From assembly GCA_944349535.1 (NCBI GenBank), contig CALVNA010000003.1, forward strand, positions 1 through 53,074: 53,074 bases of DNA. Direction: 5' to 3'. The position numbers and the translations under genes are program-made. The stretch comes from an uncultured Clostridia bacterium. GTDB lineage: Bacteria; Bacillota; Clostridia; Christensenellales; UBA1242. Position 1 is the first letter of the stretch. The number at the start of each line of letters is the position of its first letter. The notes beneath the pieces are model-generated. The model did no database searches and was not told the DNA's origin. It worked only from the letters and a program-made list of their open reading frames with translations. This document shows positions 14,247 through 40,513 of this stretch, piece after piece.

Positions 14247-14250
14247 GAAA

Positions 14251-22956: not shown

Positions 22957-24700
22957 GGTTGTCGGCATTGATTTGATCAATGACTTGTTTAACTTTTTTG
23001 AGCAATGCAAAATATTCTTCTGAGAAATATCTTTCTTTGTCTTTTGATTGATAAATTGCATTTACCATTTCTTCTGCAGTGTAGGAGCAATCAATAAGCG
23101 GTTTTATATTCTTTTTGTCCAAATATTCACGCATTTCAGATTTAGGTTCAGATCTTTTTGATTTATTTTCAAATTCCGCTTTAATTGCATCGATATTCAG
23201 CAAATTCAGCCAGCTAGATTTGCATGACTGTGAAGAAATGGATAAATAACTAAGGCACGTCCTTTCAATCATAGCTGCAAGTTTTTCAAAAGCAATTGGT
23301 TGATCTGTTCTGTTCATCATGTTTAAGTATGCCGAAATAATAGTTTTGTGTTCAATTGGATGACAAATTCCATCATGATTCATAATAAAATTGTTTGTTT
23401 CCGAAATTTGTTTGTCGATTCTCGTTTTCAGTTTGACGTTTGGAAGGGCTCTTTTTTGTCTAGCTATTTCTTTCATTTCATCGTCGAAGCAGAAACAAGT
23501 TTGGTCAATGCGCGATTTTGGTATGCTGATAAAAAAGATTGAATCACGATCGTATAAAGCATCACTAAATCTGAGTAAAATTCCAGCAAAATCAGCAATG
23601 TCTGCAACGCCAGCAGCTTTTGAGTTTGCGGTCAGATCGATGGCATAAGTTCCTTTGACTTTGTAATATTTGTCAACAATATTCACCAAGTTGAAACAGT
23701 GTCCGTAAAAGGCTTCTTCTGTCGGGACAAATTCTGCTGAAAGTTTTTTGCTGTGCAGAACATCGACAGCAATTTTAAACATGGAAGCAAAACCAGCGCA
23801 AGTAATTAGCTTTTTATCAGAAAACGCTCCAATTATGCTATGCTCACCATCGCAAAAGCCCTCTTGCCCATTGTACCGAAAATGATCAGCAATTTTCATA
23901 TAAATATACATAACAGCTTCAAGTGGAGAAAGCTTTTTGTTTGCAATCACAATTCGCGTCTCTTCCACAAATTGATTTGCTTTTTTCACATCTTCAAGGT
24001 CCCAAAGCTGCTTATATGCTTCTAAGCTTGTTGGAAAGTATAACAGCTCACAGAATCTAAGTTCACAATCAGCTTGGTTGTCTTTGTTGTAATATTCAAG
24101 TTTTTCTTGAAGTTTTGACAAACATTGAAGCTGCTCTTGAGTGTAGTAATATTCTATTTTTGAATCTATTGATTTGTCAGAAGATGCAACCATAATTTTT
24201 ATTTCAGGGCAATTATGGCTGTAAATATTATCACAAAGTTTGATGATCTTATTGACATATTTTTCAGAAATGTTGTTTGCGTCAATGGCAATATTGATTT
24301 GTTTTCCTGTTTCAATTTTTTTCTTCAGTTCAAGCAAATTTTGTCTTTCAAGTAATAATTTTTCGATTTTTTTGTCAATTTTGTTGCATTTTGATTCATT
24401 ATTCGTTGCTTTGTATCGCTCAAATCGCTCTTGACATTTTTTTATTGTCAGAGAATTTTCTGCAATTTGACTGTAAAGGGGATGCATATAATCTTGACTT
24501 GCCCAACTTTCAAAAAAATCTTTTTCTGTCATATTGTCAAAAAACAAAATCCAGTTTTCATCACACAAAAGAATGGGATGCAGTGCTATTGTTTGCCAAT
24601 CAGATAAAAACTTTCTTTTGTCTTCGGTCGAAAGTTCTTTAAAACCTTTGTAGTGTCTGTAACCATAATTAAAATCATATTTGCTAAATCTTTTTTTCAT
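22949..24700 (-). CDS. Transglutaminase-like superfamily (cysteine peptidase fold) protein
   Basis: A 583-residue protein without signal peptide or membrane segment. The central part holds a transglutaminase-like catalytic triad in order and spacing: Cys301 in TCAGFASMF, His334 in YGHCFNLVNIVD, and Asp355 in YAIDLT. These correspond to the family pattern C-x-G-[FY]-A, H-x-[WF]-N and D. The N-terminal third is charged and helical, with a Lys/Glu coiled stretch near residues 95-130; the C-terminal third is unassigned. The family includes proteases and amide-bond-processing enzymes, and the substrate here is unknown. It has its own consensus-like promoter and is monocistronic. Confidence 0.7.
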   Translation of the reverse strand: MKKRFSKYDFNYGYRHYKGFKELSTEDKRKFLSDWQTIALHPILLCDENWILFFDNMTEKDFFESWASQDYMHPLYSQIAENSLTIKKCQERFERYKATNNESKCNKIDKKIEKLLLERQNLLELKKKIETGKQINIAIDANNISEKYVNKIIKLCDNIYSHNCPEIKIMVASSDKSIDSKIEYYYTQEQLQCLSKLQEKLEYYNKDNQADCELRFCELLYFPTSLEAYKQLWDLEDVKKANQFVEETRIVIANKKLSPLEAVMYIYMKIADHFRYNGQEGFCDGEHSIIGAFSDKKLITCAGFASMFKIAVDVLHSKKLSAEFVPTEEAFYGHCFNLVNIVDKYYKVKGTYAIDLTANSKAAGVADIADFAGILLRFSDALYDRDSIFFISIPKSRIDQTCFCFDDEMKEIARQKRALPNVKLKTRIDKQISETNNFIMNHDGICHPIEHKTIISAYLNMMNRTDQPIAFEKLAAMIERTCLSYLSISSQSCKSSWLNLLNIDAIKAEFENKSKRSEPKSEMREYLDKKNIKPLIDCSYTAEEMVNAIYQSKDKERYFSEEYFALLKKVKQVIDQINADNQK

Positions 24701-24831: not shown

Positions 24832-24860
24832 TTGACTTTTTCTTGTCTTTATGCTAAAAT
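24832..24860 (+). promoter_or_regulatory. Sigma-A promoter of the ABC/giant-surface-protein operon
   Basis: TTGACT (24832-24837), 17-bp spacer, TAAAAT (24855-24860) with extended -10 TGC. The next clear terminator downstream is at 39207, so one transcript of about 14.3 kb is possible. Confidence 0.75.
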
Positions 24861-24883
24861 CTTTTCGGTTTTAAGGGGAATTT

Positions 24884-26008
24884 ATGTTAGAAATTGTAGG
24901 GCTCACAAAAAGATATAAAAATTCAAATTTCTATTCTGTCAAAAATCTTAACCTGACACTTAACGAAGGCGAGATTTTTGGTTTTCTTGGAAAAAACGGT
25001 GCAGGAAAAAGCACGACCATCAAATGCTTGACGGGGATTCTGCCTTTTGATGAAGGAACAATCAAAGTTTGTGGTTATGACATTCAAAAAAATCCAATTG
25101 AGGCAAAACTTAACATTGGCTATGTGCCAGACAACCACGCAGTTTACGAAAATCTGACTGGCAGAGAATATGTCAACTATATGGGAAATATTTACAGAGT
25201 GCCAAAAGACATTATCAAAGAGCGAATTGAAAAATTTGCCAATTTATTCAGCATGAGCCATGCTATTGACAACCAAATTCGTTCTTATTCACATGGTATG
25301 AAACAAAAAATCTGCATTATTGCAGCACTTATACATAACCCTAAATTTTGGGTGCTCGATGAGCCTTTAATGGGTCTTGACCCACAAAGCACATTTGAAA
25401 TCAGAGAATATATGAAAGAGCACAAAAGACAGGGCAATTGCGTGTTCTTCTCATCACACAACATCGACATGGTTGAAAAACTTTGTGATAGAGTTGCGAT
25501 CATGAATCGCGGACAATTGATGGAGATTATCGATGTCAAAAAGTTTATGGCGGAAAGTTCCGTTCCGCTTGAAACTTACTTCTTGAATATGACCAAAGAC
25601 AGCAAGGCAAAAGTGATCAAATTTGAAGACAAGAAAGAGACTAAGAAAAAAATTAAAGCTGAAAAAATAAAAAACAAAAAAGAAATTCGAGCTCTTCAAA
25701 AACAAACAAAAGAGCAGAATGCTATGCAAATCAAAGCCATAAAAGAGAAAGAACGCCAAGCAAAACAAGAAAAGCTGGCTTTGCAAAAGGAATTGAAAGA
25801 AAAAAACGCACAGCAGCTTCAAGTGGTCAAAGAAAAACAGCGTTTGGCAAAAAAAGAAATTCAGACCATCAAAACAAAAGAAAAAGATTTGAAGAAAGAG
25901 CTTGACGCACAATACAAGCAGAATGTAAAAGCTCAGTTTGAACTTTTGAAAGGAAAAAGCTTTTCTGTCAGCGATGAGCAAAATCAAAGTGTAGAGAAGA
26001 AACAATAA
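24884..26008 (+). CDS. ABC transporter ATPase with a long charged coiled-coil tail
   Basis: A 374-residue protein. Residues 1-235 are a normal ABC-2-type ATPase: Walker A GKNGAGKS at 36-43, signature YSHGMKQ at 135-141 (in place of LSGGQ), Walker B WVLDEPLMGLD and the H-loop SSHN. From about 245 to 350 it continues as a strongly charged Lys/Glu/Gln helix (for example KEKERQAKQEKLALQKELKE), far beyond the usual 230-300 residues, and predicted as a coiled coil. It should energise the permease encoded next. The tail may dock another protein. It is the first gene of the operon with the giant surface proteins. Confidence 0.9.
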   Translation: MLEIVGLTKRYKNSNFYSVKNLNLTLNEGEIFGFLGKNGAGKSTTIKCLTGILPFDEGTIKVCGYDIQKNPIEAKLNIGYVPDNHAVYENLTGREYVNYMGNIYRVPKDIIKERIEKFANLFSMSHAIDNQIRSYSHGMKQKICIIAALIHNPKFWVLDEPLMGLDPQSTFEIREYMKEHKRQGNCVFFSSHNIDMVEKLCDRVAIMNRGQLMEIIDVKKFMAESSVPLETYFLNMTKDSKAKVIKFEDKKETKKKIKAEKIKNKKEIRALQKQTKEQNAMQIKAIKEKERQAKQEKLALQKELKEKNAQQLQVVKEKQRLAKKEIQTIKTKEKDLKKELDAQYKQNVKAQFELLKGKSFSVSDEQNQSVEKKQ

Positions 26009-26029
26009 ACGATTGAAAATGGAGATAAA

Positions 26030-27643
26030 ATGACTCAATTTTTGACTCTTTTAAAACTTGAATTTTTAAATCGTGCACCAAAAATAAGAGTGAAGGGGCA
26101 TATTTTTTCCAAAATTTTAAAATATCTGATCACCATTCTTGGCATTGTGGCAGTTGGTGGTGCTTTACTCTATGTTTTCAACAGTTTAATTTCAGTCTGT
26201 GTTGAAGCGGACCTCTCTCAAGAGTTTATTGTTTATTACAGCTGCCTTGTGCAGATCGTTCAGCTGTTTTTTGGTCTTAGTTTGACAACAAAGACGCTTT
26301 TTTATAATTCTGATTCAGACCTTTTAAAACTGCCGCTTAACGGAAAAACAATATTTCTTGCAAAGATCACATATCTTTTCATTTACGAATTTATTTTTAC
26401 AACTTTTTTGACTTTGCCTGTTTTTATTATCTATGGCATTCAAACCATGCAGGGTGCTTTGTTTTACATCATGCTTTTGCCAAACCTTATCTTCTTTCCA
26501 GTGATTCCGTTTTTGACAGGCGTGTTACTGTCTGTTCCTGCAATGTATGTGGTTGGTTACCTTAAAAACAAGTTTGTGGTTATGCTCTTTCTTTACATTA
26601 TTTGTGTTGCTGCAGGCTTTACCGTTTATACTTATGGTTTGAGATTTTTTATGGATGTTTTAAGTTCTTCTGATATTTCCTCAATTCTTCAAAGTCAGGT
26701 AGTGATAGACATAAAGTTTATTGCAAACTTTCTTTACACACCATTGCTGTTCAAAAACAGTTTGTTGTTCTACCGTTTTTGGCCAAGTGCTATTGTAAAT
26801 TTAACTATAGTTCTTATTCTCGCCTTTTTTGTTTATCTTTTTGCACAAAAGTCATATCTTAATATTTTGCTCAAAAATATTGAGAGTGGAGGCAGCATTT
26901 ATCACAACAAAACACAGATCAAAGAAAGATCGGTTTCAAAAGCTCTTTTCTTCAGAGAGTTTCTTTCTATCTTCCGTTCAGTGAACTACTCTTTTCAATA
27001 TCTGACTATAGTCATCACAACGCCACTTATGGTTTTCTTCTCAAGTCAAATTGCTTCAAATATAGGGGTTGAACAAGTTGGAGCAGGCATTTTGCCTGGC
27101 ATTGCTGTGCTTGTTCTTTTAATGTTTTTAAGCATGGGAACATCTTTTGCCGCAACTTCAATCACGCGAGAAGGCGGAAATTTTTTCCATACAAAGATAA
27201 TCCCTGTTTCATTTACAAAACAAATTGTGGTAAAATTTTTGATGTATGTGTTCGTTTCAATTCCATCAATAATCATAAGCTGTTTAGTGCTTGCTTTTGC
27301 TGGTTTCCTTTCTTATACAGATGTTATGCTGATTGCTCTTGCTGTTTGCATGATTGTGATTGGCTCAATTGCAAATTCCATCAATCTTGATATAAAGCGT
27401 CCGCAGTTTATGTTTCTTGATGGCAAAGAAATTACAAATTCAAACGGAAACATCAATGCAAGCATCACCATCGGTTTTGTGATTGCAGTTTTAATGGGCA
27501 TTGGGGCAATCGCAGTTTCAATGTTTGTGTCTGTTCCTGCCATTTACATTGTTCTGTTTGGTTTTGGTGTGCCGTTTATGGCAATTGAATTGTTTGCACT
27601 TTTCTTCAAACTTGAAAAGAGATATAGGAGCATTGAAGCATGA
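26030..27643 (+). CDS. ABC-2-type transporter permease
   Basis: A 537-residue polytopic membrane protein with about 11-12 hydrophobic segments in two blocks. A large loop around residues 280-310 (SGGSIYHNKTQIKERSVSKA) separates them. This fits the large single-chain permeases that pair with ABC-2 ATPases. The first cytoplasmic residues (LLKLEFLNRAPK) and the SDLLKLPLNGKTIFLAK loop, a likely coupling element, match that group. It follows the ATPase by 21 bases, and its stop overlaps the start of the giant Ig-repeat gene (ATGA). Export rather than import is likely, since no solute-binding protein is present; the substrate is unknown. Confidence 0.85.
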   Translation: MTQFLTLLKLEFLNRAPKIRVKGHIFSKILKYLITILGIVAVGGALLYVFNSLISVCVEADLSQEFIVYYSCLVQIVQLFFGLSLTTKTLFYNSDSDLLKLPLNGKTIFLAKITYLFIYEFIFTTFLTLPVFIIYGIQTMQGALFYIMLLPNLIFFPVIPFLTGVLLSVPAMYVVGYLKNKFVVMLFLYIICVAAGFTVYTYGLRFFMDVLSSSDISSILQSQVVIDIKFIANFLYTPLLFKNSLLFYRFWPSAIVNLTIVLILAFFVYLFAQKSYLNILLKNIESGGSIYHNKTQIKERSVSKALFFREFLSIFRSVNYSFQYLTIVITTPLMVFFSSQIASNIGVEQVGAGILPGIAVLVLLMFLSMGTSFAATSITREGGNFFHTKIIPVSFTKQIVVKFLMYVFVSIPSIIISCLVLAFAGFLSYTDVMLIALAVCMIVIGSIANSINLDIKRPQFMFLDGKEITNSNGNINASITIGFVIAVLMGIGAIAVSMFVSVPAIYIVLFGFGVPFMAIELFALFFKLEKRYRSIEA

Positions 27644-30600
27644 AAAAATTGATGATATTTTTGATGGTTGCAATACCACTCGTAATAATTATCCTAGTCA
27701 ATTTCACTGTCGAAGTTGTGGTTGGCAACGTTTCTATTGCAGTGGACAGAATTGAACTTGATCGCACAGAAATCACTGCAAATATTGACGAAACCATTTC
27801 ACTTGAAGCAACAATTTATCCTAAAAATGCAACAAACCAAGAAATTATTTGGGAGAGCACAAATGAACAAGTTGCAAGAGTTGACCTAGATGGCAACGTT
27901 TCTTTTGTTGGCTTTGGCAATGGATATATCACTGCAACAACTGCCGACGGAAACAAGATGGCAAGCTGTTATTATTATGTTACGGACAGCAGGGTACATA
28001 GTGTCAAATTAACAACTCCTAAAGCTGAATTGCATGTAGGAACAAATGTTCAATTAGATGTTGAAATTGTGCCATATGAAGCTGAAAATAAATATGTAAC
28101 TTTTTCGTCATCGGATGAAGAAATTGCTCGAGTTGATCAAAATGGGCTTGTTACTGGTTTGAAAGTGGGTTATGTTACCATCACAGTTACAACAGAGGAT
28201 GGGCAGTATAGCGATTTTGTCAATCTTGCTATCACAAATCCGGTGGAAGATATTCAGTTAAACAAAACATACGATGTGACTGGAGAACCAAATTATTCAA
28301 TTGGTTATCAAATTATGCCAAGCACTGCAACAAACACAAATATAATTTGTGTAATTGATGATGAGAGTGTTGCAACAGTTAACAATCTTGGACAAGTTTC
28401 TTTTCTTAAAGCTGGAACTGTTGAAGTTACGTTGACAACTGTCGATGGCGGATTTAGCAAAACTATGACTATAGTTTATACTGCAGGTTATGCTCAGAGT
28501 TTGCAACTTGAAAAATATTCAATCACAGCAATGATTGGTGATGCTGCTCAGGTTATTGAATACTCTACTATGCCGAATTATCTTGCAAGCACGCAAGTCA
28601 CCTTTTCTTCTTCAAATGAGGATGTCGCTTTTGTGAGAGGTGGCTATCTTTACTTTGTCGGCGGAGGAAGTGCTACGATAACAGTATCAGTCGAGAAAGC
28701 GGCTGGTGAATATATTTCTGAGCACATAATTGTTTATGTTGAAAGCCCTGCGACGGGCATCTTAATTGAAGATGTTGTAACAGCTGAAAAAACTGTTCAA
28801 CTTCAGCCAAGTTCATTCCCTGAAAACTCAACAAACAACAAATTCTTTTATCATACAAGCTCGAATGAAGTTTCTGTCAACGAGAACGGTCTGGTAACTT
28901 TCTTGACCTACAATCCAACAACGGCTGAAATTACAATCTATGCAAATTCAGACTACAGCAATGTTTCCACCACTGTTTCTGTTGAATACACTGCAGGAAA
29001 AGCCAAAACTTTTGAATTGTCCGAAGAAAAAATCACAATGTTGTATGGCTCATCTGCGGCAATAGGATATACAATTTTCCCAAGCAATGCAAATGCCAGC
29101 GCAGTGCAGGTTGAAGTGCTGAGCCAAAAAAACAATTCTGGCAGCGGCGATGTTGTTGAAATTTTGCCAGACGGCACTTTACGAGGGATTGGTGGTGGCA
29201 AGGCTCAAGTGCAAGTTTCACTTGTTTTGCTTGGTGGAGAAAAAGTTTCTCATACTCTTGAAGTCGAAGTATTACGCCACATTGACGATATAGATATACA
29301 TGTTGAGCTTGAACAACAAAACGGAGAATACGTAACAGCTGTCAACACTGTTTCATTTGCTGCTTCAATCAGCCCTGCTGATGCAAGTGACAAAACGATC
29401 ACATGGTCGCTTAATGACAGAAATATGGGTGTTATTCTGGGCGAAACTTTCATGTTCAATCAATCGGGAGTAGTCACACTGATTGCAACAACTTCGTCTG
29501 GCTATCAAGAAAGCGTGCAAATAAGATATACCGGTTCATACCCAATTTCTGCGGAAGTGGGGATGGTGGTTGATGGCAATATTGAAACTATGCCACAAAT
29601 GATCAATGTTGGGGATGAAATTGAAGTTGCTATCAAAGAAGTGTTCCCATCAGACACGATCAATAAAAATATTTCACTTTCAGTTTCAAATCAGCAAACA
29701 TCAAGTCTGTTGGGAAAAGTTTTGGAGATAAACGGAACAACTATTCAAGCTGTGGCAGGCGGACAGGCAACTTTGACTGTTCGTGTTTCAACAACGGTTA
29801 TTCTGACTTTTGAAATCACTGTATATCAAAAAGTAGAATCTATTGAGGTGACGCCTTCAAATATTCAAACCACAAATTCAAGTTTAACTTTGCAAGCAAA
29901 TGTTTCTCCTATTGATGCAACAAACAAAGGGGTTACCTATCAAGTTTTAACTCCAGAAATTGCATATATCGACGGCGATACCCTTTATTTCAAACAAGAC
30001 GGTGTTGCTCAAATTCTTGCAATAAGCCAAGATAATCAAGAAATAACTTATCAATTTACTATCGAAAAGATTGCTAAGGGCACAGGAGTGGTTGACCCGA
30101 CAGAAGATGAAATTGAAATGTTTGTCGGCGATAGCAACAAACTTGATTTCTCATCTCAAGGCATCAGTTATGACAATTTGGAAATCATGTTTGCTCAAGA
30201 CGCTGACACAAGCGTCATTGAAATCAACGGCGACACCATTGTTGCTTTGACAAGCGGACAAACCCAAATCATTTGCATTTTATATGATGCGTTTGGCTCT
30301 CCACTTAATTCATATCAAATCACTGTTACAGTAAAACAACTTGTTGAAAACATTATCTATGTTGGGCAGCTTGAAGAGTATAACGGTTACCTTACAACCG
30401 CAAAAGATGTTATCAGCCTTGACTTTGCAGCATTGCCAGAAGAAGCAACTGATGTTGACCTAAGCTATCGCATCATAAGTATCCACGACTTAGACGGAGT
30501 TGCAGCCGATAATATTGCCGCTATTGACAGCAGCTCTAACACACTTAAGTGGTTTAGCTCTGGTGCTCTGACACTTGAAGTCTCTTCAGCTGATGGAAAC

Positions 30601-33600
30601 ATAACCAAAACCTTCAGGTTCAAATACACCGGAGGAGACCCCCTTGCTGCTGAGATTAACATAAGCAGAGAAATTTCGCTCAATGTTGGAGAAAGCATTA
30701 CAATCGAGGTGCTTAAGTGGACACCAAGCGACACTGTTAATAAACAAATTTTGATCAGAGAGACAAATCATACAACAGGTGTCAATGTTATCAGTATCGA
30801 TAGCCAAAATTTGACAATTACTGCTTTAAGTGGTGGATTTAGCAATATTCGTATTGAGCTCTCAAATGGCTTGACGCAGGATATTACCATCAATGTTATC
30901 AAAAAAGTCACTTCAATAGTTGTAAGTGAAGAAAATATCGTCACGGCTTCAAACACTGCAGTCATCAATGCAACAGCATATCCAAGCAGTGCAACAAACA
31001 AAACACTTTCCTATCAAATTGAAAAGGTTGATTTTGCAACTCTTGATGGCAACACGGTGACTTTCACATCGGCTGGAACTGTTGTTGTAACAATTTCCAC
31101 TATGGATGGAAGCGATATTTATAAACAAGTTACTGTTACAAGCACTATGGGCTATCTGCATAGCATCGATTTGAATGTAACAACTCGAACTATTTCAAAA
31201 AGAGCTTCTTTCTCACTTTATGTAACTCAAACCTATCCATTTGATGCAACAAACAAAGATGTTCAATTTAAAATTCTTTCTCAGACTGCAGCTGATGAAA
31301 GCCAAAATGATGTAATTTCGATCACCCAAAATGGTTCGACAATTCTTGTTCACGGTCTTTACGGTGGAAGTGCGATTGTAAGGGCTTATAGCTATAACAG
31401 CTTGGGTGAAGAAGTTTATACAGATTGTGTTGTAACGGTAAGCAGCCCCGTTGAAAGTATTGAAATTGATTTTGTCAGCGAAATAGAATTTTATCGTAAT
31501 TATTATGTTACAAGTCAAAACCAAATTTTCTTTAATGAAATTGTAAAACCTTTTGATGCCACAAATAGAGATTTTGTTTACACAATTTCTGATCCAACCA
31601 AAGCTACAGTGGAAGATGGAGTTATCACTTTCCATCAAATTGGCACTGTGACGGTAACATTCACTAGTGCAGACAGAACAAATGGCGAAATCTCGGTATC
31701 TTATATCTTCTCTTATGCAGGCGACACTCTGTTGGAAGCAAGTTTGAATTTAGATCCTTTTGACAATGGTGTTCTCAGATTAAATGCAGGCGAAGAAGTA
31801 ACCCTCACACTCAACAACTGGGTGCCAAAAGATAATGTAAATGTTTCCATTATTTTGAATAATCTTTCTGAAGAGAGAAATGATTCGTCAAAAGCTGTTC
31901 TCAGCTTTGAAAATGGAGTGCTCAAAGCATTAAATGGAGGAGAGGCAACATTTGAGCTTATGGCAAACAATATCTCTCTTGGCTCGTTCAAAGTGATAGT
32001 GACTCGTCAAGCAAGTGATATTTGGGTTGAAAACGAGCAGATTTATGTTTCTTCTGCTGGCTATCAAATTAATGCTCAAGTTCTTCCAACTGACACATCA
32101 AACAAAGAACTTATTTATCAAACAAACAATCCATCTATTGCCACTGTTGATGAGTTTGGTGCTGTTTCATTCAGTGGTTATGGAGTAGTTGTGATAACTA
32201 TAATCCTTGAAGAGAATCCATCTATTTCAAAACAAATAACTATTGAATATACACGAGAAATAAAGGATATTTCTTTCAGCCAGACAAAAGATGCAATGTA
32301 TGAAAATGATTATGTTGTCCTTACAGTTGAGCCGCAGCCAATATATGCGGAGGGGTATTCATACTCCTTCTCACTCAGTGATCCTTCGGTTGCAACTATT
32401 GAACAAATTGACGATTTGCAGTGGAGATTGAGAGGAATAAAGGCGGGAGAAGTTGTTGTAACTCTTTCAGTTGATGGAACAGAAATTTCTTACAGCCATA
32501 CATTCACATTTTACACAAAAATCACAGACTTGAGGTTGGAACTAGACAATGAAGGGAACGATGCCTATGGGTTTGGTGGCTATAGGGTGTTTGCAAACAA
32601 ATTTGTCGATTCTTCAGGCAAATTGACCAATCAGTTTGTTATGAATTTTTCAACAAGTCCAAGCGATAAAGATTATTCAGATCTCATTGAATGGTCATCA
32701 AGCAATGACCAAATTGCAATAGTAGATCAATATGGAAGAATTACTTTCAAAGGAACTGGGGTTGTAACTATCACAGCTTCACAAATTCCTCCTTATGAAA
32801 ACGCAAATGTAGTTTGGGATTCATACACCTTCTATATTGTTGAAGGCATCAATGTTTATAACTTCGAACAATATAAAGCTGCAATAAGTGAACTAGAAAA
32901 GACGAACGCAAACAAGACAGACAATTTCAGTGCTCTTGTGCTTCACGGCGATATTATCATGCAGCAAAATTCTCTTAGCCATGCTTTGAATTACAATATT
33001 TATGGCAATGGTTATATGATTGATTTTTCAAATGACTCAAATTACGAAAAAATCAACATAACTCGAAGCAATCTTGTGATTGACAATGTCGTGCTGCGAG
33101 GAAACACTTTCTCAGGCGAAGGTGCTTTGTCGCAGCTTGAGAATAAAGGCAAAATACTGAAAATTAGCGGCAATGTAAAAAATGTTTTAATTTACAACAC
33201 TATCATTGAAAACGCCCATATATTGGCTGAAGTTATCAGTTCGCAAGCTTACTTTCAAGGCTGTATTTTGAGAAATTCTTTCTCAGGCGGACTTGTTTTG
33301 GCACGAACAAAAGATGACAAAGTCGCACCTAATGTTATCGTTGAAGATTGCATTTTGTCAAACAGTCTGTTCAGTTGCATATTGTTTAAACCAGACACTT
33401 CAAGTCAACTTGAAGGTTATGAAAGCAAATTGACTTTGAAGGGTGATGTGCGAATTTATAACTGGCTTACACTTGATGAATTTGAAGGAAGCTCAATACT
33501 AGGCTTTTTTGAAGAGTATGGCTTGAGTAATGTGGGTGATGATATTATCAACAAGATTAAGGATGCTATAAGAACTAAATACAGCCAATACAAATACACT

Positions 33601-33936
33601 TATAAAGGTGAAGACTATTATATGTTTGGGATCTTGCAATTTTACGCATCTGTTTACAACATGTTCACCTTCCAAAGCAATGGTATTATTGACAGAAGCG
33701 GACTCAACTCAAACTTCAATTATGCAGATTGTAAATTGGACGAAACCATACCAATCATAGGTGATATATCTGGCGATTTGGAGGTTGATTTGTTGACGTT
33801 CTACGGATATGATGAAACTGATCCTGAAGAAGATAGACCTAAACCATTTATTGCACCAAATGATACTTACGAAGCCAATCCAGTGATTTTGGGCGAGATC
33901 AGACAACCACGCAGAGATAGCGAGCTTGGATTTTAA
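27640..33936 (+). CDS. Giant N-terminally anchored surface protein with Big_2-type Ig repeats
   Basis: A 2098-residue protein. Residues 5-28 form an uncleaved-looking membrane anchor or signal (MIFLMVAIPLVIIILVNF). From about 35 to 1730 there are roughly 19 bacterial Ig-like (Big_2) repeats of about 85-90 residues. They are recognised by P-x-[DS]-A-T-N-K-x-[IV]-x-[YW] (for example PIDATNKGVTY, PFDATNKDVQF) and by G-x-[IV]-x-[FA]-x-x-x-G-x-V-x-[IV]-x-x-T. From about 1737 to 1960 the repeats give way to a parallel beta-helix-like region (LVIDNVVLRGNTF, KNVLIYNTIIENAHI, PNVIVEDCILSNS), and the last 100 residues are unassigned. There is no sortase motif. It is translationally coupled to the permease by an ATGA overlap. 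Confidence 0.85.
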   Translation: MKKLMIFLMVAIPLVIIILVNFTVEVVVGNVSIAVDRIELDRTEITANIDETISLEATIYPKNATNQEIIWESTNEQVARVDLDGNVSFVGFGNGYITATTADGNKMASCYYYVTDSRVHSVKLTTPKAELHVGTNVQLDVEIVPYEAENKYVTFSSSDEEIARVDQNGLVTGLKVGYVTITVTTEDGQYSDFVNLAITNPVEDIQLNKTYDVTGEPNYSIGYQIMPSTATNTNIICVIDDESVATVNNLGQVSFLKAGTVEVTLTTVDGGFSKTMTIVYTAGYAQSLQLEKYSITAMIGDAAQVIEYSTMPNYLASTQVTFSSSNEDVAFVRGGYLYFVGGGSATITVSVEKAAGEYISEHIIVYVESPATGILIEDVVTAEKTVQLQPSSFPENSTNNKFFYHTSSNEVSVNENGLVTFLTYNPTTAEITIYANSDYSNVSTTVSVEYTAGKAKTFELSEEKITMLYGSSAAIGYTIFPSNANASAVQVEVLSQKNNSGSGDVVEILPDGTLRGIGGGKAQVQVSLVLLGGEKVSHTLEVEVLRHIDDIDIHVELEQQNGEYVTAVNTVSFAASISPADASDKTITWSLNDRNMGVILGETFMFNQSGVVTLIATTSSGYQESVQIRYTGSYPISAEVGMVVDGNIETMPQMINVGDEIEVAIKEVFPSDTINKNISLSVSNQQTSSLLGKVLEINGTTIQAVAGGQATLTVRVSTTVILTFEITVYQKVESIEVTPSNIQTTNSSLTLQANVSPIDATNKGVTYQVLTPEIAYIDGDTLYFKQDGVAQILAISQDNQEITYQFTIEKIAKGTGVVDPTEDEIEMFVGDSNKLDFSSQGISYDNLEIMFAQDADTSVIEINGDTIVALTSGQTQIICILYDAFGSPLNSYQITVTVKQLVENIIYVGQLEEYNGYLTTAKDVISLDFAALPEEATDVDLSYRIISIHDLDGVAADNIAAIDSSSNTLKWFSSGALTLEVSSADGNITKTFRFKYTGGDPLAAEINISREISLNVGESITIEVLKWTPSDTVNKQILIRETNHTTGVNVISIDSQNLTITALSGGFSNIRIELSNGLTQDITINVIKKVTSIVVSEENIVTASNTAVINATAYPSSATNKTLSYQIEKVDFATLDGNTVTFTSAGTVVVTISTMDGSDIYKQVTVTSTMGYLHSIDLNVTTRTISKRASFSLYVTQTYPFDATNKDVQFKILSQTAADESQNDVISITQNGSTILVHGLYGGSAIVRAYSYNSLGEEVYTDCVVTVSSPVESIEIDFVSEIEFYRNYYVTSQNQIFFNEIVKPFDATNRDFVYTISDPTKATVEDGVITFHQIGTVTVTFTSADRTNGEISVSYIFSYAGDTLLEASLNLDPFDNGVLRLNAGEEVTLTLNNWVPKDNVNVSIILNNLSEERNDSSKAVLSFENGVLKALNGGEATFELMANNISLGSFKVIVTRQASDIWVENEQIYVSSAGYQINAQVLPTDTSNKELIYQTNNPSIATVDEFGAVSFSGYGVVVITIILEENPSISKQITIEYTREIKDISFSQTKDAMYENDYVVLTVEPQPIYAEGYSYSFSLSDPSVATIEQIDDLQWRLRGIKAGEVVVTLSVDGTEISYSHTFTFYTKITDLRLELDNEGNDAYGFGGYRVFANKFVDSSGKLTNQFVMNFSTSPSDKDYSDLIEWSSSNDQIAIVDQYGRITFKGTGVVTITASQIPPYENANVVWDSYTFYIVEGINVYNFEQYKAAISELEKTNANKTDNFSALVLHGDIIMQQNSLSHALNYNIYGNGYMIDFSNDSNYEKINITRSNLVIDNVVLRGNTFSGEGALSQLENKGKILKISGNVKNVLIYNTIIENAHILAEVISSQAYFQGCILRNSFSGGLVLARTKDDKVAPNVIVEDCILSNSLFSCILFKPDTSSQLEGYESKLTLKGDVRIYNWLTLDEFEGSSILGFFEEYGLSNVGDDIINKIKDAIRTKYSQYKYTYKGEDYYMFGILQFYASVYNMFTFQSNGIIDRSGLNSNFNYADCKLDETIPIIGDISGDLEVDLLTFYGYDETDPEEDRPKPFIAPNDTYEANPVILGEIRQPRRDSELGF

Positions 33937-33950
33937 AAAAGGAGAAGAAT

Positions 33951-36900
33951 ATGAAAGTTAAGAGTTTTTCATTGAAAATAACTGCTTTGCTAATAACTCT
34001 TTTTAGCATATTCTTTTTCGCTGGCCTATATATGACTGGCAATGGGGCTAATGCGGTCATTCAAGGAATTTCTGGCAATCAATTTATTTTGACAGCTTCG
34101 ATTGGCAACACAACAGGGCATTATTTTCGAGATAACGCAAACAATTCAACACTTTCGAATGCAGATTCTTCTGATGAGGGTGGAGAGTATTATTCAATTG
34201 TGCCCTCGTCAGGTCTTTTGCTTGGCAAAACAAGTTCTGGCTATGGCTCAGTTATCACAACAAGCGATATGAATGCTTTGATTGAAAAAGGTGTTCTTTA
34301 TGCAAGAGCAGAGTTTAGTTTTAAAGCAAACAATGACAACGCTCAGTCAAATATTGAAGTGGCTTTGTCGCAGGGCGATAATTCACAGACTATAACTACT
34401 TCATACAACAATGGTCAATCAACAGCTTACAGCACAGAACTTTTAAAACTGTCTGCAGATGAAGGCTCTGAGATTAGGTTTAGTTTTACCACTTTGTCTT
34501 CAACTTCTGTAGGATCTTATTCTAGTTTCATTTTGTCAAAACCTACAATAAAATTTTACACAAAAATCAACAGTCTTGATTTCTCAAATCAAGATCAGAT
34601 TGTTTCAGCAGGCGGAATTATTGAGCTTAATGCTACAAATGACATTTTGCAAATCAACAACACAACTGGCAATCTTCTTAGTTACAGCAAGATCAATCAC
34701 GACATTGAATATAAATTTATTGCGGGCTCAGAATACGCAAAAATAGTTGGAGATTATCTTCACATAGACAGCGACGCACCAGAAGGAGCAGAAATTGTCT
34801 TACAAGCAGAGTGTCGTGAAAATTCTTATGATAACACTTATATTGCAAGCGAAGAAGTGACTTTTACTGTTTCATACTCTCAAGTGGAGGTGAAAGTGAA
34901 GACCGATTTTGACAATCCGCCAACAATCACTGGCGAAGGTGTTTATACGCAAGGCAGAAGAATCTTTTTGAGAATTGACACAAACAAAAGCTCCAATTCA
35001 AGATTCAATTTCGAAGGATGGTATGTCAATGACATTCTTCAAAGCACTCAAGCAACTTTAAATTATGTTGTTAATGCTGGAGATGAAATTTATGCCAAAC
35101 TGACCAAGGATATAACAATCGACTCAATTGAAGTTGCAGACAAGATTTATGATGGAACAACAAATATTGATTCAAAAAGCATTACTTATCACTTTAATGG
35201 TGTTGAAGAAGGGCATGAAGTATCGCTTGGTGGTATTGAAATTGCCTTTGCTAATGCAAGTGCCGGTCAGGATAAAGCAATTTCTATTACTGGCATGGAA
35301 AATATGACATTGACGGGGACAAATGCCTCTTTGTATGTGCTTACAAGTCGCACAGTCTCTTCAGCAACCGGAAATATTATAAAACGAGATGTTACTTTGA
35401 CACCAACAACTCTTTCAAAATATTATGGAGACAGAGAGCCTGCTCTTGCATATGATTCAAAAGGTCTTGTTGATGGGCAAACTCTTTATGGCAGTTTATT
35501 GCGAGAGGTCGGCGAAGAAGTTGGGGAATATTTAATTAGCTTGGGCAGTATAGCAACAGATACGAGAAATAGCAACTATAACATCTCGATGGCTGAAGGA
35601 GAGTTTTATTTTAAGATAGAAAAGAGGCCTCTGACAATTTCCAACCTTTTTGTAGAAGATAAAGTTTACGATAAAACTACTAATGCCGTTTTAAGTGATT
35701 ATTCAGTTTCAAACATTGTGGGAAATGAAGACGTAACAGTTGAAATTGTTGGTCAATATGAAGACTGTAATGCTGGCTACGGCAAAACAGTCAACATCAC
35801 TGCTTCAGTTCAAGGTCAAGATAACGAAAATTATATTTTGCCGGAGCTTGAAGTTTTGACTGGAAATATTATTCAAAAATCCATTATAGTGAAGGCGAAT
35901 GACGCTACTGTAGTTTTTGGGGACGAGCTTGATTTGACCTATTCGGTTGAAGGTCTTTTAGAAGGCGACTTCTTGCAAGGCGAATTGCAAATTGAAGATT
36001 TAAATGTTGGGCTTCACACCATAACACTTGGAAATTTAAGTAATGAAAATTATTCAATCACTTATCAATCAGCAAACTGCCAAATAACGCCAAGAGATGT
36101 TTATATCACAGCTGAAGCTAAAACAAAACAGTATGGCGACGTTGATCCAGCTTTGACCTTTACCATAGAAAATGCTGTTGAAGGTCAAGTGTTAAACGGC
36201 AATTTGACAAGAGAGGCAGGTGAAGAGCTTGGCTCCTACCAAATTGGCCAGGGCACACTTTCAAATTCGAATTATACAATTCATTTTACTTGTGCATCGT
36301 TTGAAATTTTACAAAGAGATATAACTGTTCAATTTTCATTTTCAGATAAAACCTACGACGGCACCACAAATGTTTCATATCAAGCAAATTTCATAAATGC
36401 GCTTTCATCTGATGATTTTTCTATTGAAATTGACGCAGCTCTTAAAAGCAAAGACGCTGGGCAGGTTTCTGTTATTATAGAAGGCCAGCCAAAAGTGAAA
36501 CTAAGTGAGCAAAGGGTGAATCTAGGTGACAAGCTTTCAAATTACAACTTTACTTTTGAACAGCTCAACGATATTGTTCAGATTGAAAAGAAGCCAGTTA
36601 ATATTGTGATAGAATCTTTAAGCAAGACTTATGGAGATCAAGATCCGGAAATCAGCTATCAGGCGGAGGGTGTTGTTGAAGGCGAAACTTTGACCGGCAA
36701 ACCGCAGCGTAATGCTGGAGAAAGTGTTGGAGAATATTTGATCTATCTTGATGAGCTGAACAATCAAAATAACCCAAATTACATTATCACATATCTTTCA
36801 TCAGAAGCTGTTTTGACTGTTTTGCCAAGAGAAATTCAAATCGTTATGGACAACTTATCTAAATTTTATGGCGATGCCGACCCAGAATTCTCTTTTACAT

Positions 36901-39221
36901 TACAAGGAGCTCTTCAATTTGACGATGCCATAGAAGATCTTTTTGATGGTCAAATTGTAAGGCAAAGTGGCGAAATAGTTGGTATATATCAACTTTCAAT
37001 CGATGGTGTAACAAATGAAAACTATAACATAGTTTTTCAAAATGCTAATTTTGTCATCAATAAACGCCCTATAACAGTGATTGCTGATGATGCCACAAAA
37101 ATTTATGGCGACGAAGATCCTTCGTTTACCTATACTGCAACAAACCTTGTTGATGGCGAAAGCATAACTTTATCAGTCAAAAGGCAGTATGGCGAGAATG
37201 TAGGCGACTACGCAATGGTGCTTGAGTCATCAAATGATGCAAGATATTCAATCACTTTTGTGCCAGGGATTTTAACCATTTTGCCAAGCGAAATCACGCT
37301 TAGGGCGGAAGATAAGGTTAAAGTTTATGGGGATGAAGATCCTTCATATAGTGTCATTATTGTTGATGGTCTGCTTAAAAACAATGATGTGCTGGCAAAC
37401 ATTGCAAATGGGCAGATGGAAAGAACTGCTGGAGAAAATGTTGGGCAATATGTTATCAGTCAAGGGTCTTATAATTTGGGTGATAACTATAAAATAAAAT
37501 TTCAGACGGGAAGTCTTGAAATTGTTCAGCAGTCAATCACTGTTTCGGCAAATCAAACAAACAAACAATACGGCGATGCCGATCCTGTGATTGGATACAC
37601 CATAACATCTGGTAGCCTGAAGTTTAGTGACGATTTTGTTGGTGCACTAACAAGGCAACCAGGCGAAACTCTCGGATCTTACACCATAGAGCAAGGGTCG
37701 CTCTCTTTGAGTGAAAATTATATCCTTGAATTTGTTTCAAATGATTTTGTTATTGAAAAAAGACAAATTACTATCATTCCTTCGGTCTCGTCAAAGATTT
37801 ACGGAGAGGCGGAGCCTGAGTTAACTTATCAAATCGTGGTTGGGTCGCTTGTAAATGGCGAGAAATTGGAAGGAGAAATTTATCGTGATAAACCAACAAC
37901 TGCTGCTGATCCACACCTATACGAAAATGTTGGGTCTTACAGAATTTACTCTACTTTAAATCACGAAAATTATGAAATAACATTTGGCACTCATTATTTT
38001 GAAGTTGAACCAAGAGTGATTGAAATTCATGCGGAAAACGCAAGCAAAGTTTACGGACAAGAAGACCCAGAACTTGTTTATACTATTATCAACGAAGAGG
38101 ACATCTTGTCAGGGGATGTTTTGCAGGGATCTATCAGCCGTGTTTCTGGAGAAAATGCTGGAAATTATGATATAAGAAGCAGTTTAACTCTTGGTAGAAA
38201 TTATACAATAAATTTTACGAGAGGAATTTTCACAATTCTTCCGATTGAACTTGTTGTAAGAACAGAAAATTATGTTAAAACTTATGGTCAGATGGACCCA
38301 GTCTTTACCTATCAAATTGTTGAAGGAGAGCTCATCAATTCTGATATTCTTTATGGTTCGATCACTCGTGAGCAAGGCGAAGATGCTGGTGTTTATAAGA
38401 TGCTTTCAAGTCTTTCAAACATCAACTACAATATAACTTTGGAAGAAGCTTATCTTGTCATTGAAAAGAAGGATGTTTATATGCTGGCAAGTGTTTACGA
38501 CAAAATTTATGACGGAACTGATGTTGCTCAGATAAAAACACCGGTCGTTTCTGGCCTTGTTGATAAAGATGTATCCCTTTCTTATGATAGAAATAACTGT
38601 GCAAGATTTGCAACTTCGCAAGTTGGCGATAACATCCCTGTTTCCTTCCATGACATAGTGCTTGTTGGGGATAAGGCAGGCAATTACAATTTGATTCTGC
38701 CGACTGATGTTACTGGTTCAATCACATACAAAGAAGTCATTTCAGAAAATGAAGAAGTCATCATTGAAGCACTTGACAGTGCAGTGCTCTATCAAGGCAC
38801 AATGCTTAATGTCAACAATTTTGAAATTGCCAGAGAGGATATGGGGCTGAATAAATATCAAGTCATCACAGGCTTTGCAATCAGACTTGAGCGGGATGGG
38901 CAAAATATTGATTTGAATGGCACAATATCATTGACCATAAAACTTGATTCGGCTTTTGCTGACAGAAACAATATATACGTGTATCACAAAACAGAAAGCG
39001 GACAGTATGTTTTGGTCAACAGCGAAAATGAAGATGGCTTGATCAAAATCAACATTGATGAGCTCGGCGAATTTGTGCTTATGACCGATAATGATGCATG
39101 GATTGATGTTGTGGCATATGTATGTATTGGCGTTCTTGGTTTGTTCGCGATATGCTATGTGATCTATCTTGTTCGTAATCGAAAAAACAAGAAAAATTTT
39201 GACGAAAAAAAATCTTCTTAA
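33951..39221 (+). CDS. Giant surface protein with MBG and YDG repeats and C-terminal membrane anchor
   Basis: A 1756-residue protein. It has a signal peptide (to about residue 35, NGANA), a beta-rich N-terminal region, and a Listeria-Bacteroides-like repeat with FEGWYVND near residue 360. At least 11 MBG-type units follow, marked by K-x-Y-G-D-x-D-P-x-[FL]-x-Y (for example KIYGDEDPSFTY, KTYGDQDPEISY). Four YDG-type units are marked by K-x-YDGTT. A C-terminal folded domain at about 1590-1710 precedes one membrane helix (VVAYVCIGVLGLFAICYVIY) and a basic tail. There is no LPxTG motif. A GGAG site precedes the ATG, and it starts 15 bases after the preceding gene. It is probably a fibrous adhesin, displayed by or with the ABC system. 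Confidence 0.87.
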   Translation: MKVKSFSLKITALLITLFSIFFFAGLYMTGNGANAVIQGISGNQFILTASIGNTTGHYFRDNANNSTLSNADSSDEGGEYYSIVPSSGLLLGKTSSGYGSVITTSDMNALIEKGVLYARAEFSFKANNDNAQSNIEVALSQGDNSQTITTSYNNGQSTAYSTELLKLSADEGSEIRFSFTTLSSTSVGSYSSFILSKPTIKFYTKINSLDFSNQDQIVSAGGIIELNATNDILQINNTTGNLLSYSKINHDIEYKFIAGSEYAKIVGDYLHIDSDAPEGAEIVLQAECRENSYDNTYIASEEVTFTVSYSQVEVKVKTDFDNPPTITGEGVYTQGRRIFLRIDTNKSSNSRFNFEGWYVNDILQSTQATLNYVVNAGDEIYAKLTKDITIDSIEVADKIYDGTTNIDSKSITYHFNGVEEGHEVSLGGIEIAFANASAGQDKAISITGMENMTLTGTNASLYVLTSRTVSSATGNIIKRDVTLTPTTLSKYYGDREPALAYDSKGLVDGQTLYGSLLREVGEEVGEYLISLGSIATDTRNSNYNISMAEGEFYFKIEKRPLTISNLFVEDKVYDKTTNAVLSDYSVSNIVGNEDVTVEIVGQYEDCNAGYGKTVNITASVQGQDNENYILPELEVLTGNIIQKSIIVKANDATVVFGDELDLTYSVEGLLEGDFLQGELQIEDLNVGLHTITLGNLSNENYSITYQSANCQITPRDVYITAEAKTKQYGDVDPALTFTIENAVEGQVLNGNLTREAGEELGSYQIGQGTLSNSNYTIHFTCASFEILQRDITVQFSFSDKTYDGTTNVSYQANFINALSSDDFSIEIDAALKSKDAGQVSVIIEGQPKVKLSEQRVNLGDKLSNYNFTFEQLNDIVQIEKKPVNIVIESLSKTYGDQDPEISYQAEGVVEGETLTGKPQRNAGESVGEYLIYLDELNNQNNPNYIITYLSSEAVLTVLPREIQIVMDNLSKFYGDADPEFSFTLQGALQFDDAIEDLFDGQIVRQSGEIVGIYQLSIDGVTNENYNIVFQNANFVINKRPITVIADDATKIYGDEDPSFTYTATNLVDGESITLSVKRQYGENVGDYAMVLESSNDARYSITFVPGILTILPSEITLRAEDKVKVYGDEDPSYSVIIVDGLLKNNDVLANIANGQMERTAGENVGQYVISQGSYNLGDNYKIKFQTGSLEIVQQSITVSANQTNKQYGDADPVIGYTITSGSLKFSDDFVGALTRQPGETLGSYTIEQGSLSLSENYILEFVSNDFVIEKRQITIIPSVSSKIYGEAEPELTYQIVVGSLVNGEKLEGEIYRDKPTTAADPHLYENVGSYRIYSTLNHENYEITFGTHYFEVEPRVIEIHAENASKVYGQEDPELVYTIINEEDILSGDVLQGSISRVSGENAGNYDIRSSLTLGRNYTINFTRGIFTILPIELVVRTENYVKTYGQMDPVFTYQIVEGELINSDILYGSITREQGEDAGVYKMLSSLSNINYNITLEEAYLVIEKKDVYMLASVYDKIYDGTDVAQIKTPVVSGLVDKDVSLSYDRNNCARFATSQVGDNIPVSFHDIVLVGDKAGNYNLILPTDVTGSITYKEVISENEEVIIEALDSAVLYQGTMLNVNNFEIAREDMGLNKYQVITGFAIRLERDGQNIDLNGTISLTIKLDSAFADRNNIYVYHKTESGQYVLVNSENEDGLIKINIDELGEFVLMTDNDAWIDVVAYVCIGVLGLFAICYVIYLVRNRKNKKNFDEKKSS

Positions 39222-39237
39222 TTTAAGAAGATTTTTT
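39207..39237. terminator. Bidirectional terminator ending the surface operon
   Basis: A near-perfect palindrome, AAAAAATCTTCTTA and TAAGAAGATTTTTT. It includes the stop codon of the giant gene and lies between two convergent genes. Confidence 0.9.
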
Positions 39238-39238: not shown

Positions 39239-40513
39239 TTAGTCAGCTTCAGCTTCTTCAAAGCAGTCCTTTTCAATAACTTTTGCCGACATCTTTGTTT
39301 GGCTTTCTTGTTGATTTTCCTGCTCGTTTTCCGTTTCTTGAAAATTTATCAAAATATCATTGATGGTTTTTAAAGATTGATTGATTGTCAGGTTAGTTTG
39401 AGAAAACAGATTGCTCGCTTCGTCATTTTCGTCATTTAATTGTGCTATAAATGCTTTTGTTGGCGAGGAGTAGTTTAAATCTATCTCAGGGGTGGAACTG
39501 ATATCGGAAGCCCAAATGGTAACGCTTCCATCATTGTTGTAAACAGGAATTTTGTATATGATTGATCCGTCGTTTGCTGTGGCCCACTGAGTGTCTCCCA
39601 CATACAAAACATCATTTCCGCGATCGTTTAAGACTGCCATGATTTCTTGAGCATCTTCATTCATAGCAGTTATGTTAAAAAGTCCGCACATATCAGGGTT
39701 TTGCAAGTATTTCAGAAGTTCGTTTAACTTGTTGATATCAGACATTTGATCGGTTGAAAGTGTAAAATTTTGATCGGCATAAAATTGCATATCATAGGTT
39801 GCTTTATTTTTTGTTACAAATTTAAGGCTTACAAGATAGTTTGTAAACGTGCCATTTTGAATTACATCATTAAGTTGGAAGCTGGAAATCGACATAATTT
39901 CTGCCACTTGTTCGGTAATTCCAAAATTTGATGAATCCTGGGCAATATATGCTTTTATTTGATTCAGAGCCTCTTGCTTTTCTTCATCAGTTACAGGAAA
40001 AGGTTTGATATTCCCTGAATTGTCAGTTTCAAAGTCATTTTCGTTTGAATTGTCAATCGTTTCGCTTGTAGTGAAATCATTAACTGTTGTTCTGTCTCCA
40101 TTTGATAAATTCAGATAAATCGCGTTACCATTTTTCGCAAGTCCAATACAAATCAGGACTAATGCAATTTTTTTGATCAGCCCAGAAGCAACGATGGTTT
40201 TGTTAGATTTTTTTTGTGGAGCAATGTATTTTCCTTTTTTAACATTTTTGTTTTCTTTTTTAGTTTTTTGATCTTTTGCTGGTTTAAAGTCGTTTTTGTT
40301 TGAGCCTTCAATCAACACTGGAGTGAAATCATTAAGTTTTTTTGAAAGATAGGCAGGATAAAGTGGTAAATTTAAAGTGTAATTGGTTTTTATTTTCCTT
40401 GTTTTAAGTTTACCTTTATTTTCTTTAGGTTTACCAAAAAAATTTGAAAGCTTTTGCTTCAAATTATTGTCATTTGCAGAATTTTTGCTTTGTGTTGTTT
40501 GTTTTTGGCTCAT
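39239..40513 (-). CDS. Single-pass membrane protein with extracytoplasmic domain, unknown function
   Basis: A 424-residue protein with a basic, disordered cytoplasmic N-terminus of about 105 residues (many KKxxK and PK stretches). One membrane helix follows (TIVASGLIKKIALVLICIGLA), then an outside domain of about 290 residues containing a plausible NTF2-like or globular alpha/beta region (EEKQEALNQIKAYIAQ, NYLVSLKFVTKNKATYDMQF). The tail is acidic and Gln/Glu-rich. This type II topology is common in cell-envelope factors. I do not recognise the family. A -10 box ends 6 bases before the ATG and no ribosome binding site is visible, so the mRNA may be leaderless. It converges on the surface operon. 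Confidence 0.7.
   Translation of the reverse strand: MSQKQTTQSKNSANDNNLKQKLSNFFGKPKENKGKLKTRKIKTNYTLNLPLYPAYLSKKLNDFTPVLIEGSNKNDFKPAKDQKTKKENKNVKKGKYIAPQKKSNKTIVASGLIKKIALVLICIGLAKNGNAIYLNLSNGDRTTVNDFTTSETIDNSNENDFETDNSGNIKPFPVTDEEKQEALNQIKAYIAQDSSNFGITEQVAEIMSISSFQLNDVIQNGTFTNYLVSLKFVTKNKATYDMQFYADQNFTLSTDQMSDINKLNELLKYLQNPDMCGLFNITAMNEDAQEIMAVLNDRGNDVLYVGDTQWATANDGSIIYKIPVYNNDGSVTIWASDISSTPEIDLNYSSPTKAFIAQLNDENDEASNLFSQTNLTINQSLKTINDILINFQETENEQENQQESQTKMSAKVIEKDCFEEAEAD

Follow-up and report, generated by a model that had tools for sequence, protein, structure and literature searches.

An ABC transporter and two giant repeat proteins, encoded one after another in an uncultured bacterium, appear to form one system, a conclusion well supported by comparison of related genomes. 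We somewhat favor a specific form of it: a single envelope machine in which an ABC exporter has a dedicated external subunit, an Ig-repeat rod, that was elaborated within the genus. The genes for the transporter, for the two giants (BIG and MBG) and for a fifth protein lie in a window of 53,074 nucleotides (the whole stretch of DNA analyzed), with these features:

24832..24860, + strand: promoter-like site TTGACT-17-TAAAAT, 5' of the ATPase gene (a sequence match)
24884..26008, + strand: ABC ATPase, 374 aa; ABC_tran 2.5e-29
26030..27643, + strand: ABC permease, 537 aa; 10-12 hydrophobic segments across orthologues
27640..33936, + strand: BIG, 2098 aa, single-pass and N-anchored; Big_2-type Ig repeats with a beta-helix domain last; Big_2 3.8e-63
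27640..27726, + strand: N-terminal anchor helix of BIG with Pro13 (codon 27676-27678), the proposed docking helix
32407..33933, + strand: C-terminal Ig and beta-helix domain of BIG, common to short partners
33951..39221, + strand: MBG, 1756 aa; 11 MBG_2 and 4 YDG stretches
about 39210..39237, no strand assigned: perfect AT-rich hairpin with a T-run, between convergent stops, read from the sequence; likely terminator
39239..40513, - strand: fifth gene, convergent, 424 aa

The genes for ATPase, permease, BIG and MBG are contiguous on the + strand, in that order, with the hairpin at their end. The ATG of BIG overlaps the TGA of the permease, and MBG starts 14 bases past the BIG stop; these coordinates confirm the run of four genes described in an earlier note on this DNA. 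That note had also proposed a promoter-to-terminator unit. Its downstream end stood, as the hairpin at 39210-39237 is likely a terminator, judging from its sequence. Its upstream end did not fare as well: the region holds 56 promoter-like sites against 49.3 +/- 6.7 by chance, which is no excess, and one promoter for the whole unit is therefore only plausible. A terminator scan returned none at the internal junctions; it demands three G-C pairs, also misses the hairpin at 39210, and hence may overlook AT-rich ones. The host, a gut bacterium, has a genome of about 1 Mb and is represented by an assembly that is 84% complete. Within this genome, all 6 Big_2 matches above cut-off and all 11 MBG_2 matches fall in BIG and MBG.

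Orthologues of the permease, BIG and MBG were found in the identical 17 of 101 related genomes, and the fifth gene gave strong matches in those same 17. Since 15 of the 17 unit-bearing genomes supplied the fifth-gene profile, the independent part of this result is two more strong matches and none strong in the other 84. Gene order agreed in 17/17 genomes, with the unit split by contig ends in G021, G028 and G050 and the BIG-MBG junction of G028 unreadable. The co-occurrence check that the earlier note had suggested, four genes in one order, was thus borne out. The conserved locus extends to the fifth gene, just outside 24832-39237: a homologue was present in 15/15 loci covering that side (leave-one-out E <= 2.6e-26). 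Neither this gene nor the relation of BIG to shorter partners, discussed below, appears in the earlier note. Such joint presence and absence makes it probable that the genes work as a single machine.

Genes can also be kept together by travelling together, and a mobile island whose five genes do not act together is a reading we consider highly unlikely. Presence is patchy: an RpoB tree of 29 genomes requires 7 changes (6-7 over bootstraps). Its clustering on that tree is weak: shuffled presence averaged 9.8 changes and was as low in 30/500 shuffles. This tree includes 13 hand-chosen unit-less genomes and lacks G024, which gave no match; RpoB was used instead of enolase, which was discarded as a species marker with a match in only 27/63 genomes. 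On the permease tree the G055 and G046 cassettes fall among those of other 'Lapin' MAGs, and their RpoB lies in another clade. Such a distribution would suit an island, but a Pfam scan of 13 window proteins turned up no integrase or transposase, the genes retain their order and spacing, and the pairing of the ABC genes with a Big protein is much older than the five-gene unit.

That older pairing emerged from a species-wide permease scan, in which the best 80 of 135 confirmed relatives were kept, representing 79 loci; the pairing counts cover those 79. A partner was scored as an N-anchored single-pass ORF near the permease end, of 250 aa or more or cut by a contig end, and most such ORFs also match Big profiles. 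It followed the permease in 34/34 readable loci with an identity of 42% or higher and in 38/41 with one of 29-33%, for 72/75 with both groups together. The counts are not independent, as the pairing apparently reflects one inherited ancestral event. On a tree of 93 permeases, a branch with support of 98 has a partner in 59/62 on one side and 0/31 on the other, which suggests one gain and one loss; the pairing looks like a single ancestral event inherited by many, on a deep tree that is unsure, with long branches. Twenty regions, hand-picked from permease hits and partly for a Big match, enter the proline, alignment, Big_2 and tree counts; most other distant permease hits were left unread.

Further out, the partner is absent: it was found in 0/26 class-level ABC pairs outside the order (the best-scoring loci there, with about 1.5 kb of flank each) and, inside the order, in neither six distant pairs (L099-L101, L106-L108) nor one nested clade (L161, L176, which equals L095, and L178). 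Because the ABC pair stands without giants among distant relatives, the comparison shows the giants to be an add-on to an older two-gene exporter, which is not proof that they are unrelated to it. The observation by which the earlier note would have its claim of one surface system refuted, ABC pairs lacking the giants, was thus made among distant relatives; nearer the window the claim is well supported by the same 17/101 genomes, the shared order, the tight spacing and repeated joint gain or loss.

Partners outside the genus mostly measure 800-1,040 aa, and even among genus members the length spans 132 to more than 3,300 residues. The BIG profile matches both ends of 27/27 short partners tested (the best-matching of 47), with about 1,250 extra BIG residues between. 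Big_2 was detected in 39/39 partners of 700-1316 aa and Pfam Beta_helix in 3/39, and three mini-partners of 132-141 aa consist of the helix and about one Ig domain. These matches mark BIG as an extended version of a protein that is a widespread neighbor of the transporter (alignment A3 used 57/67 sequences, and alignment A4 72/75). The window itself has the features by which we define the family: a permease directly followed by a single-pass N-anchored Big_2 protein with the helix proline and the shared C-terminal domain.

Conservation within BIG is highest at the membrane end (0.57-0.66 over residues 1-120) and about 0.2-0.45 beyond residue 420, except for 0.53 at 1681-1740; one incomplete row depresses the later values by about 1/17. 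Pro13 of the anchor helix is invariant in 17 genus sequences and in a 39-sequence alignment, and a proline at positions 11-15 occurred in 71/76 partners versus 7/135 controls. The five misses were the three mini-partners, L105, in which it is displaced, and L146, whose start is apparently over-extended. As far as these sequences tell, the proline is not essential to every pairing, since it is missing in the mini-partners and displaced in L105.

The features above also bear on a reading in which the ABC pair and the giants are co-regulated and mechanically independent, with an exporter of a small molecule, lipid or peptide expressed alongside adhesins under the same condition. We take this possibility seriously while thinking it less probable than a single machine. 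It accommodates the ABC pair standing alone in the 26 class-level loci examined, and a second surface protein that differs by lineage (MBG, BspA-type LRR, MBG_2 or an unclassified lipoprotein); Ig repeats and beta-helices are, moreover, frequent in adhesins. It does not readily account for an N-anchored partner after nearly every readable permease among the best 79 loci, or for conserved features concentrated at the membrane end. BIG spans 2047-2156 aa across 24 complete loci, and the lengths of BIG and MBG are near-constant (coefficient of variation 1.2% each, 24 loci), whereas those of typical repeat adhesins are not. Raw BIG and MBG lengths correlate (Spearman 0.92, n=14; 0.87, n=24); a 'molecular ruler' of matched lengths was rejected, with independent contrasts on the permease tree giving r 0.06, p 0.79.

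The ATPase has Walker A, signature, Walker B and H-loop motifs (PF00005 2.5e-29). It matched TIGR01188 at 4.1e-66, under that model's cut-off, and the GldA model at 8.2e-56, where 189.7 bits against an equivalog cut-off of 402.6 place it outside GldA. Its charged C-terminal tail is not conserved; complete orthologue ORFs measure between about 238 and 380 aa, and the tail was rejected as a docking element on its length of ~0 to about 140 residues among orthologues.

The permease had no Pfam match at E 0.01; PF16949 was reached at E 0.05, below cut-off. Likeness to PF16949 (ABC_tran_2) permeases comes from 7/22 permease relatives that match at 0.1 or better (best 3.8e-10). The L098 homologue consists of two overlapping ORFs, each with about six hydrophobic segments. 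The structure model is almost wholly helical, with no large external domain, and its fold matches are weak throughout (best E 0.05; NosY E 0.44), including the mycobacterial efflux pump 8k1m (E 0.2), which has a permease chain of similar length. A difference from PF16949 permeases and 8k1m lies in the partner: across the 26 class-level loci, no anchored Ig protein came after the permease. As sequence search returned no solved homologue and the fold matches are weak, we infer, rather than observe, an ABC-2-like exporter class.

MBG matches MBG_2 (1.3e-151, 11 stretches) and YDG (2.4e-39, 4 stretches), and has an apparent cleavable signal peptide and a C-terminal membrane anchor with a basic tail. 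The anchoring proposed in the earlier note, BIG by an N-terminal single pass and MBG by a C-terminal membrane helix, was recovered, as was its statement that neither giant has a sortase motif: no LPXTG-like motif occurs in the final 60 residues of BIG or MBG in 14/14 complete pairs, and the 84%-complete genome has no PF04203 match, which sets the giants apart from the sortase-anchored class. The fifth protein comprises a basic N-terminal part, one membrane helix and an extracytoplasmic part, and neither Pfam nor NCBIfam gave a match to it at E 0.01.

In the single envelope machine that we favor, ATPase and double-length ABC-2-like permease would form a motor in the membrane, with BIG as the transporter's dedicated extracytoplasmic subunit. 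Its uncleaved, proline-bearing N-terminal helix and first Ig domain would dock on the permease, and its Ig chain would carry the beta-helix head outwards. Within the genus the rod would have grown two- to two-and-a-half-fold in length. MBG, which is fixed by its C-terminal end and so runs the opposite way, and the convergently encoded single-pass protein would have joined as constant partners, both presumably contacting the rod. Changes that ATP drives in the permease may be transmitted to the rod, or may control how a substrate is delivered along its length. A bolder version, which we regard as rather improbable, is an ATP-powered surface rod: the ABC motor would move, tension or feed an Ig rod of ~2,000 residues that crosses the cell wall, with the oppositely anchored MBG and the fifth protein as sliding or capping partners.

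Among the nearest known systems, NosDFY has a similar layout, in which an ABC-2-like core of ATPase and permease is served by its own periplasmic beta-helix protein. An outside beta-helix is predicted here too: the single-chain AlphaFold2 model of the BIG C-terminal domain (pLDDT 92.8, pTM 0.91) has many short strands in a beta-helix-like order, a match to Pectate_lyase_5 below cut-off and weak fold matches to beta-helix enzymes among the best 50 of 456. NosD is absent from those best 50. The present permease differs in being a double-length chain, and BIG in its Ig repeats, which NosD is not known to have. The gliding system GldA-GldF-GldG of Bacteroidota likewise combines an ABC ATPase, a permease and an auxiliary membrane protein and is linked to giant surface adhesins; our ATPase falls far under the GldA cut-off, however, and GldG is not known to be an Ig-repeat protein. 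With FtsEX-EnvC, MacAB and YbbAP-TesA, which are type VII ABC systems working by mechanotransmission, the machine would share its principle: the energy of ATP hydrolysis is used on an extracytoplasmic partner (PMC12646458). The permease is of another kind, its helical model having no large external domain.

A further reading, which we judge quite improbable, borrows from LolCDE: the ABC pair would extract, release or display a neighboring surface protein, MBG or a lipoprotein. In L092, L098, L102-L104, L153, L155 and L162 the ABC-Big unit does adjoin a large protein whose sequence shows a lipobox-like pattern or whose N-terminus resembles that of lipoproteins, but many such units show no such neighbor. 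Since MBG brings a signal peptide and a membrane anchor of its own, the general secretion route ought to be enough for it. LolCDE, moreover, belongs to the type VII ABC systems (PMC12646458), and the present permease is unlike that class.

The gene set is described nowhere in the titles and abstract beginnings of the open-licence PMC literature searched. ABC transporters with dedicated outside partners are known; the same titles and abstract beginnings yielded none in which an ABC-2-like exporter is paired with an Ig rod tethered to the membrane and so variable in length. If the surface-rod reading were true, a bacterium with a genome of ~1 Mb would have an energized appendage independent of sortase. 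Should the partner prove to be a genuine subunit, its proline helix together with the first Ig domain would provide a handle on how an exporter is linked to a wall-crossing structure, and the locus would give a first role to two giants and to the fifth gene, which belongs to no known family.

The four genes described in the earlier note were present as claimed: an ABC ATPase, recognized by Pfam search and the positions of its ABC motifs; a 537-residue permease; BIG, a 2098-residue protein of Big_2 repeats behind an N-terminal helix with no evident cleavage site; and MBG, a 1756-residue protein with an apparent signal peptide, 11 MBG_2 and 4 YDG stretches, and a C-terminal membrane anchor. The start of BIG indeed overlaps the permease stop (ATGA), 14 bases separate the BIG stop from the MBG start, and the proposed terminator is a perfect hairpin with a T-run at about 39210-39237. 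The promoter-like site at 24832 does fit its pattern, although sites of this kind are not enriched. The genome itself is an 830-kb MAG, 84% complete.

A fifth gene adjoins this unit:

39239-40513, minus strand, 424-residue single-pass protein, convergent and directly downstream

Its product belongs to no known family by Pfam and NCBIfam searches. A homologue occupied the same position in all 15 loci that cover that side, the window included (leave-one-out profile E <= 2.6e-26). Across 101 related genomes the fifth-gene profile gave strong matches (E <= 2.7e-50) in 17, and these same 17 hold an orthologous permease (at least 43% identity), BIG and MBG (both E 0), in keeping with the earlier proposal that transporter and giants belong together. 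Fifteen of the 17 carriers had gone into that profile, so the independent part of this agreement is two more strong matches (G021 and G056, on other contigs) and none strong in the other 84 genomes; one weak match (2.1e-4) fell outside the carriers, in G047. All 17 carriers belong to the window's genus. The four gene searches found a partial set at orthologue level in none of the 101 genomes, while the permease, BIG or MBG singly gave weaker, paralogous matches elsewhere.

The permease has a wider association. A permease-profile scan of 84,980 species genomes confirmed 135 relatives, and the best 79 loci of these were all examined. At 42% identity or more, an N-anchored single-pass protein (the partner) was encoded immediately next in 34 of 34 readable loci (three more lay at contig ends); at 29-33% identity a partner came next in 38 of 41 (one more lay at a contig end). 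In the three loci that differ (L161, L176, L178) the next gene is what we take, by motif, to be a patatin-like gene. Complete partners in the 29-33% group were mostly 800-1,040 residues long, and Big_2 was found in 39 of 39 of a set of 700-1316 residues; the extremes were mini-partners of 132-141 residues in three same-genus genomes, one of which reaches the Big_2 cut-off, and, in one same-genus genome, a partner of 3,317 residues (L089). A profile of the genus giants matched an N-terminal and a C-terminal part, the latter between about 1510 and 2072, in each of 27 short partners, these being the best-matching 27 of 47; for L094 the N-terminal match begins only at position 107. Because both ends of the short partners are matched, about 1,250 residues of repeats in the middle of BIG are extra, and BIG is a stretched form of the partner family.

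It is the membrane end of BIG that stays constant. Identity among BIG orthologues is highest in residues 1-120, and Pro13 of the helix does not vary across 17 genus sequences and 39 shorter partners. Of 76 partners, 71 have a proline at positions 11-15; among the other N-anchored proteins of those loci the count is 7 of 135. Five partners lack it: the three mini-partners, L105, where the proline is at 7, and L146, whose start is probably over-extended. We infer that a docking element could take this form, a conserved kinked helix next to a membrane protein of many helices.

ABC pairs without giants, which the earlier note named as refuting its one-system reading, do exist among distant relatives. 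In a class-level sample the wider permease profile matched at E 1e-30 in 116 of 291 genomes, six in the window's own order. Among class-level loci outside that order, the gene after the permease matched no Big profile in any of the best 26, and six distant pairs inside the order (L099-L101 and L106-L108) likewise have no partner. In a tree of 93 permeases, a branch with support 98 divides 62 permeases, 59 with a partner, from 31 with none. The three partner-less permeases among the 62 form one clade, as do the genus cassettes (support 100). The simplest history of the pairing is one gain and one loss; long branches make the deep branching order uncertain.

The second giant, by comparison of these loci, is exchangeable between lineages. 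In the five-gene unit of the genus it is MBG; L098 has an MBG_2 protein beside the ABC pair and partner (the ABC-Big unit), and L092 and L102, and by position L103 and L104, an unclassified protein. Three loci carry a BspA-type LRR protein of more than 2,100 residues, truncated where the locus ends, with a 191-204-residue two-helix protein between it and the ABC-Big unit:

L153, 14914-21645, BspA-type LRR protein
L155, 9479-15973, BspA-type LRR protein
L162, 5522-12145, BspA-type LRR protein

Other loci have further Big-partner copies or no such neighbour at all. The MBG_2, unclassified and BspA-type neighbours are putative lipoproteins, judged by a lipobox-like pattern or by how their N-terminus looks. 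That the ABC pair handles the neighbouring surface protein strikes us as improbable.

Separately, L103 (13035-15404), L104 (2238-4547) and L105 (13802-16045) each encode an ABC ATPase joined in one protein with a membrane domain that matches TMEM164 (PF14808), adjoining permeases with a mini-partner or anchored Big protein. L093 encodes a 3201-residue protein (4975-14580) with 26 MBG_2 stretches and RCC1 repeats, about 35 kb from an ABC-Big unit on the same contig.

Other proteins encoded in the window include:

7241-8746, plus strand, 501-residue WG-repeat protein, 9 stretches
9976-14085, plus strand, 1369-residue protein, Big_13-like stretch close to the C-terminus
22949-24700, minus strand, 583-residue protein, no Pfam or NCBIfam match at E 0.01
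44187-47957, plus strand, 1256-residue protein with DUF4011, AAA_11/AAA_12 and MTES_1575 nuclease domains

The 583-residue protein, presumably transglutaminase-like from its Cys-His-Asp pattern, has a homologue upstream of the cassette in at least six other genomes (L072, L109, L110, L114, L123, L125). The 1256-residue protein is possibly defence-related.

An RpoB tree was built from 29 genomes of the genus, 16 carrying the unit and 13, hand-picked, lacking it. Presence of the unit takes 7 joint gains or losses on this tree (bootstrap range 6-7), where shuffling gives a mean of 9.8. The cassettes of G055 and G046 (L084, L085) cluster with those of other MAGs whose isolate names begin Lapin, and their RpoB lies in another clade; this disagreement suggests transfer of the unit, or else mis-binning (listed contamination 6% and 3%). 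A mobile island seems a very improbable account of the locus. An enolase search of these small genomes gave a match at E 1e-30 in just 17 of 39 of the same genus (27 of 63 overall), so many of the former may lack it.

The C-terminal 509 residues of BIG were predicted confidently (pLDDT 92.8) and the model reads as an Ig domain leading into a beta-helix. Its fold matches were weak, with intimin and Big_2 domains at the top (E 0.001) and beta-helix carbohydrate enzymes next. The permease model (pLDDT 80.8) has weak fold likeness to CcmB, a mycobacterial efflux pump, NosY and PmtCD (E 0.05-0.6), consistent with an ABC-2-like exporter. With BIG anchored at its N-terminus and MBG at its C-terminus, their distal ends would be able to meet; an apparent matching of their lengths was lost after phylogenetic correction.

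ABC systems with partners outside the membrane are already known as a kind; this family, whose Ig rod is stretchable and which is elaborated here to five genes, was not found in the literature searched. That the giants are co-regulated adhesins is a possible but rather doubtful reading. We lean towards reading the locus as an ABC exporter that has its own dedicated subunit outside the membrane, in which ATP-powered movement of the permease would either be transmitted along the rod or serve to pass a substrate to it.
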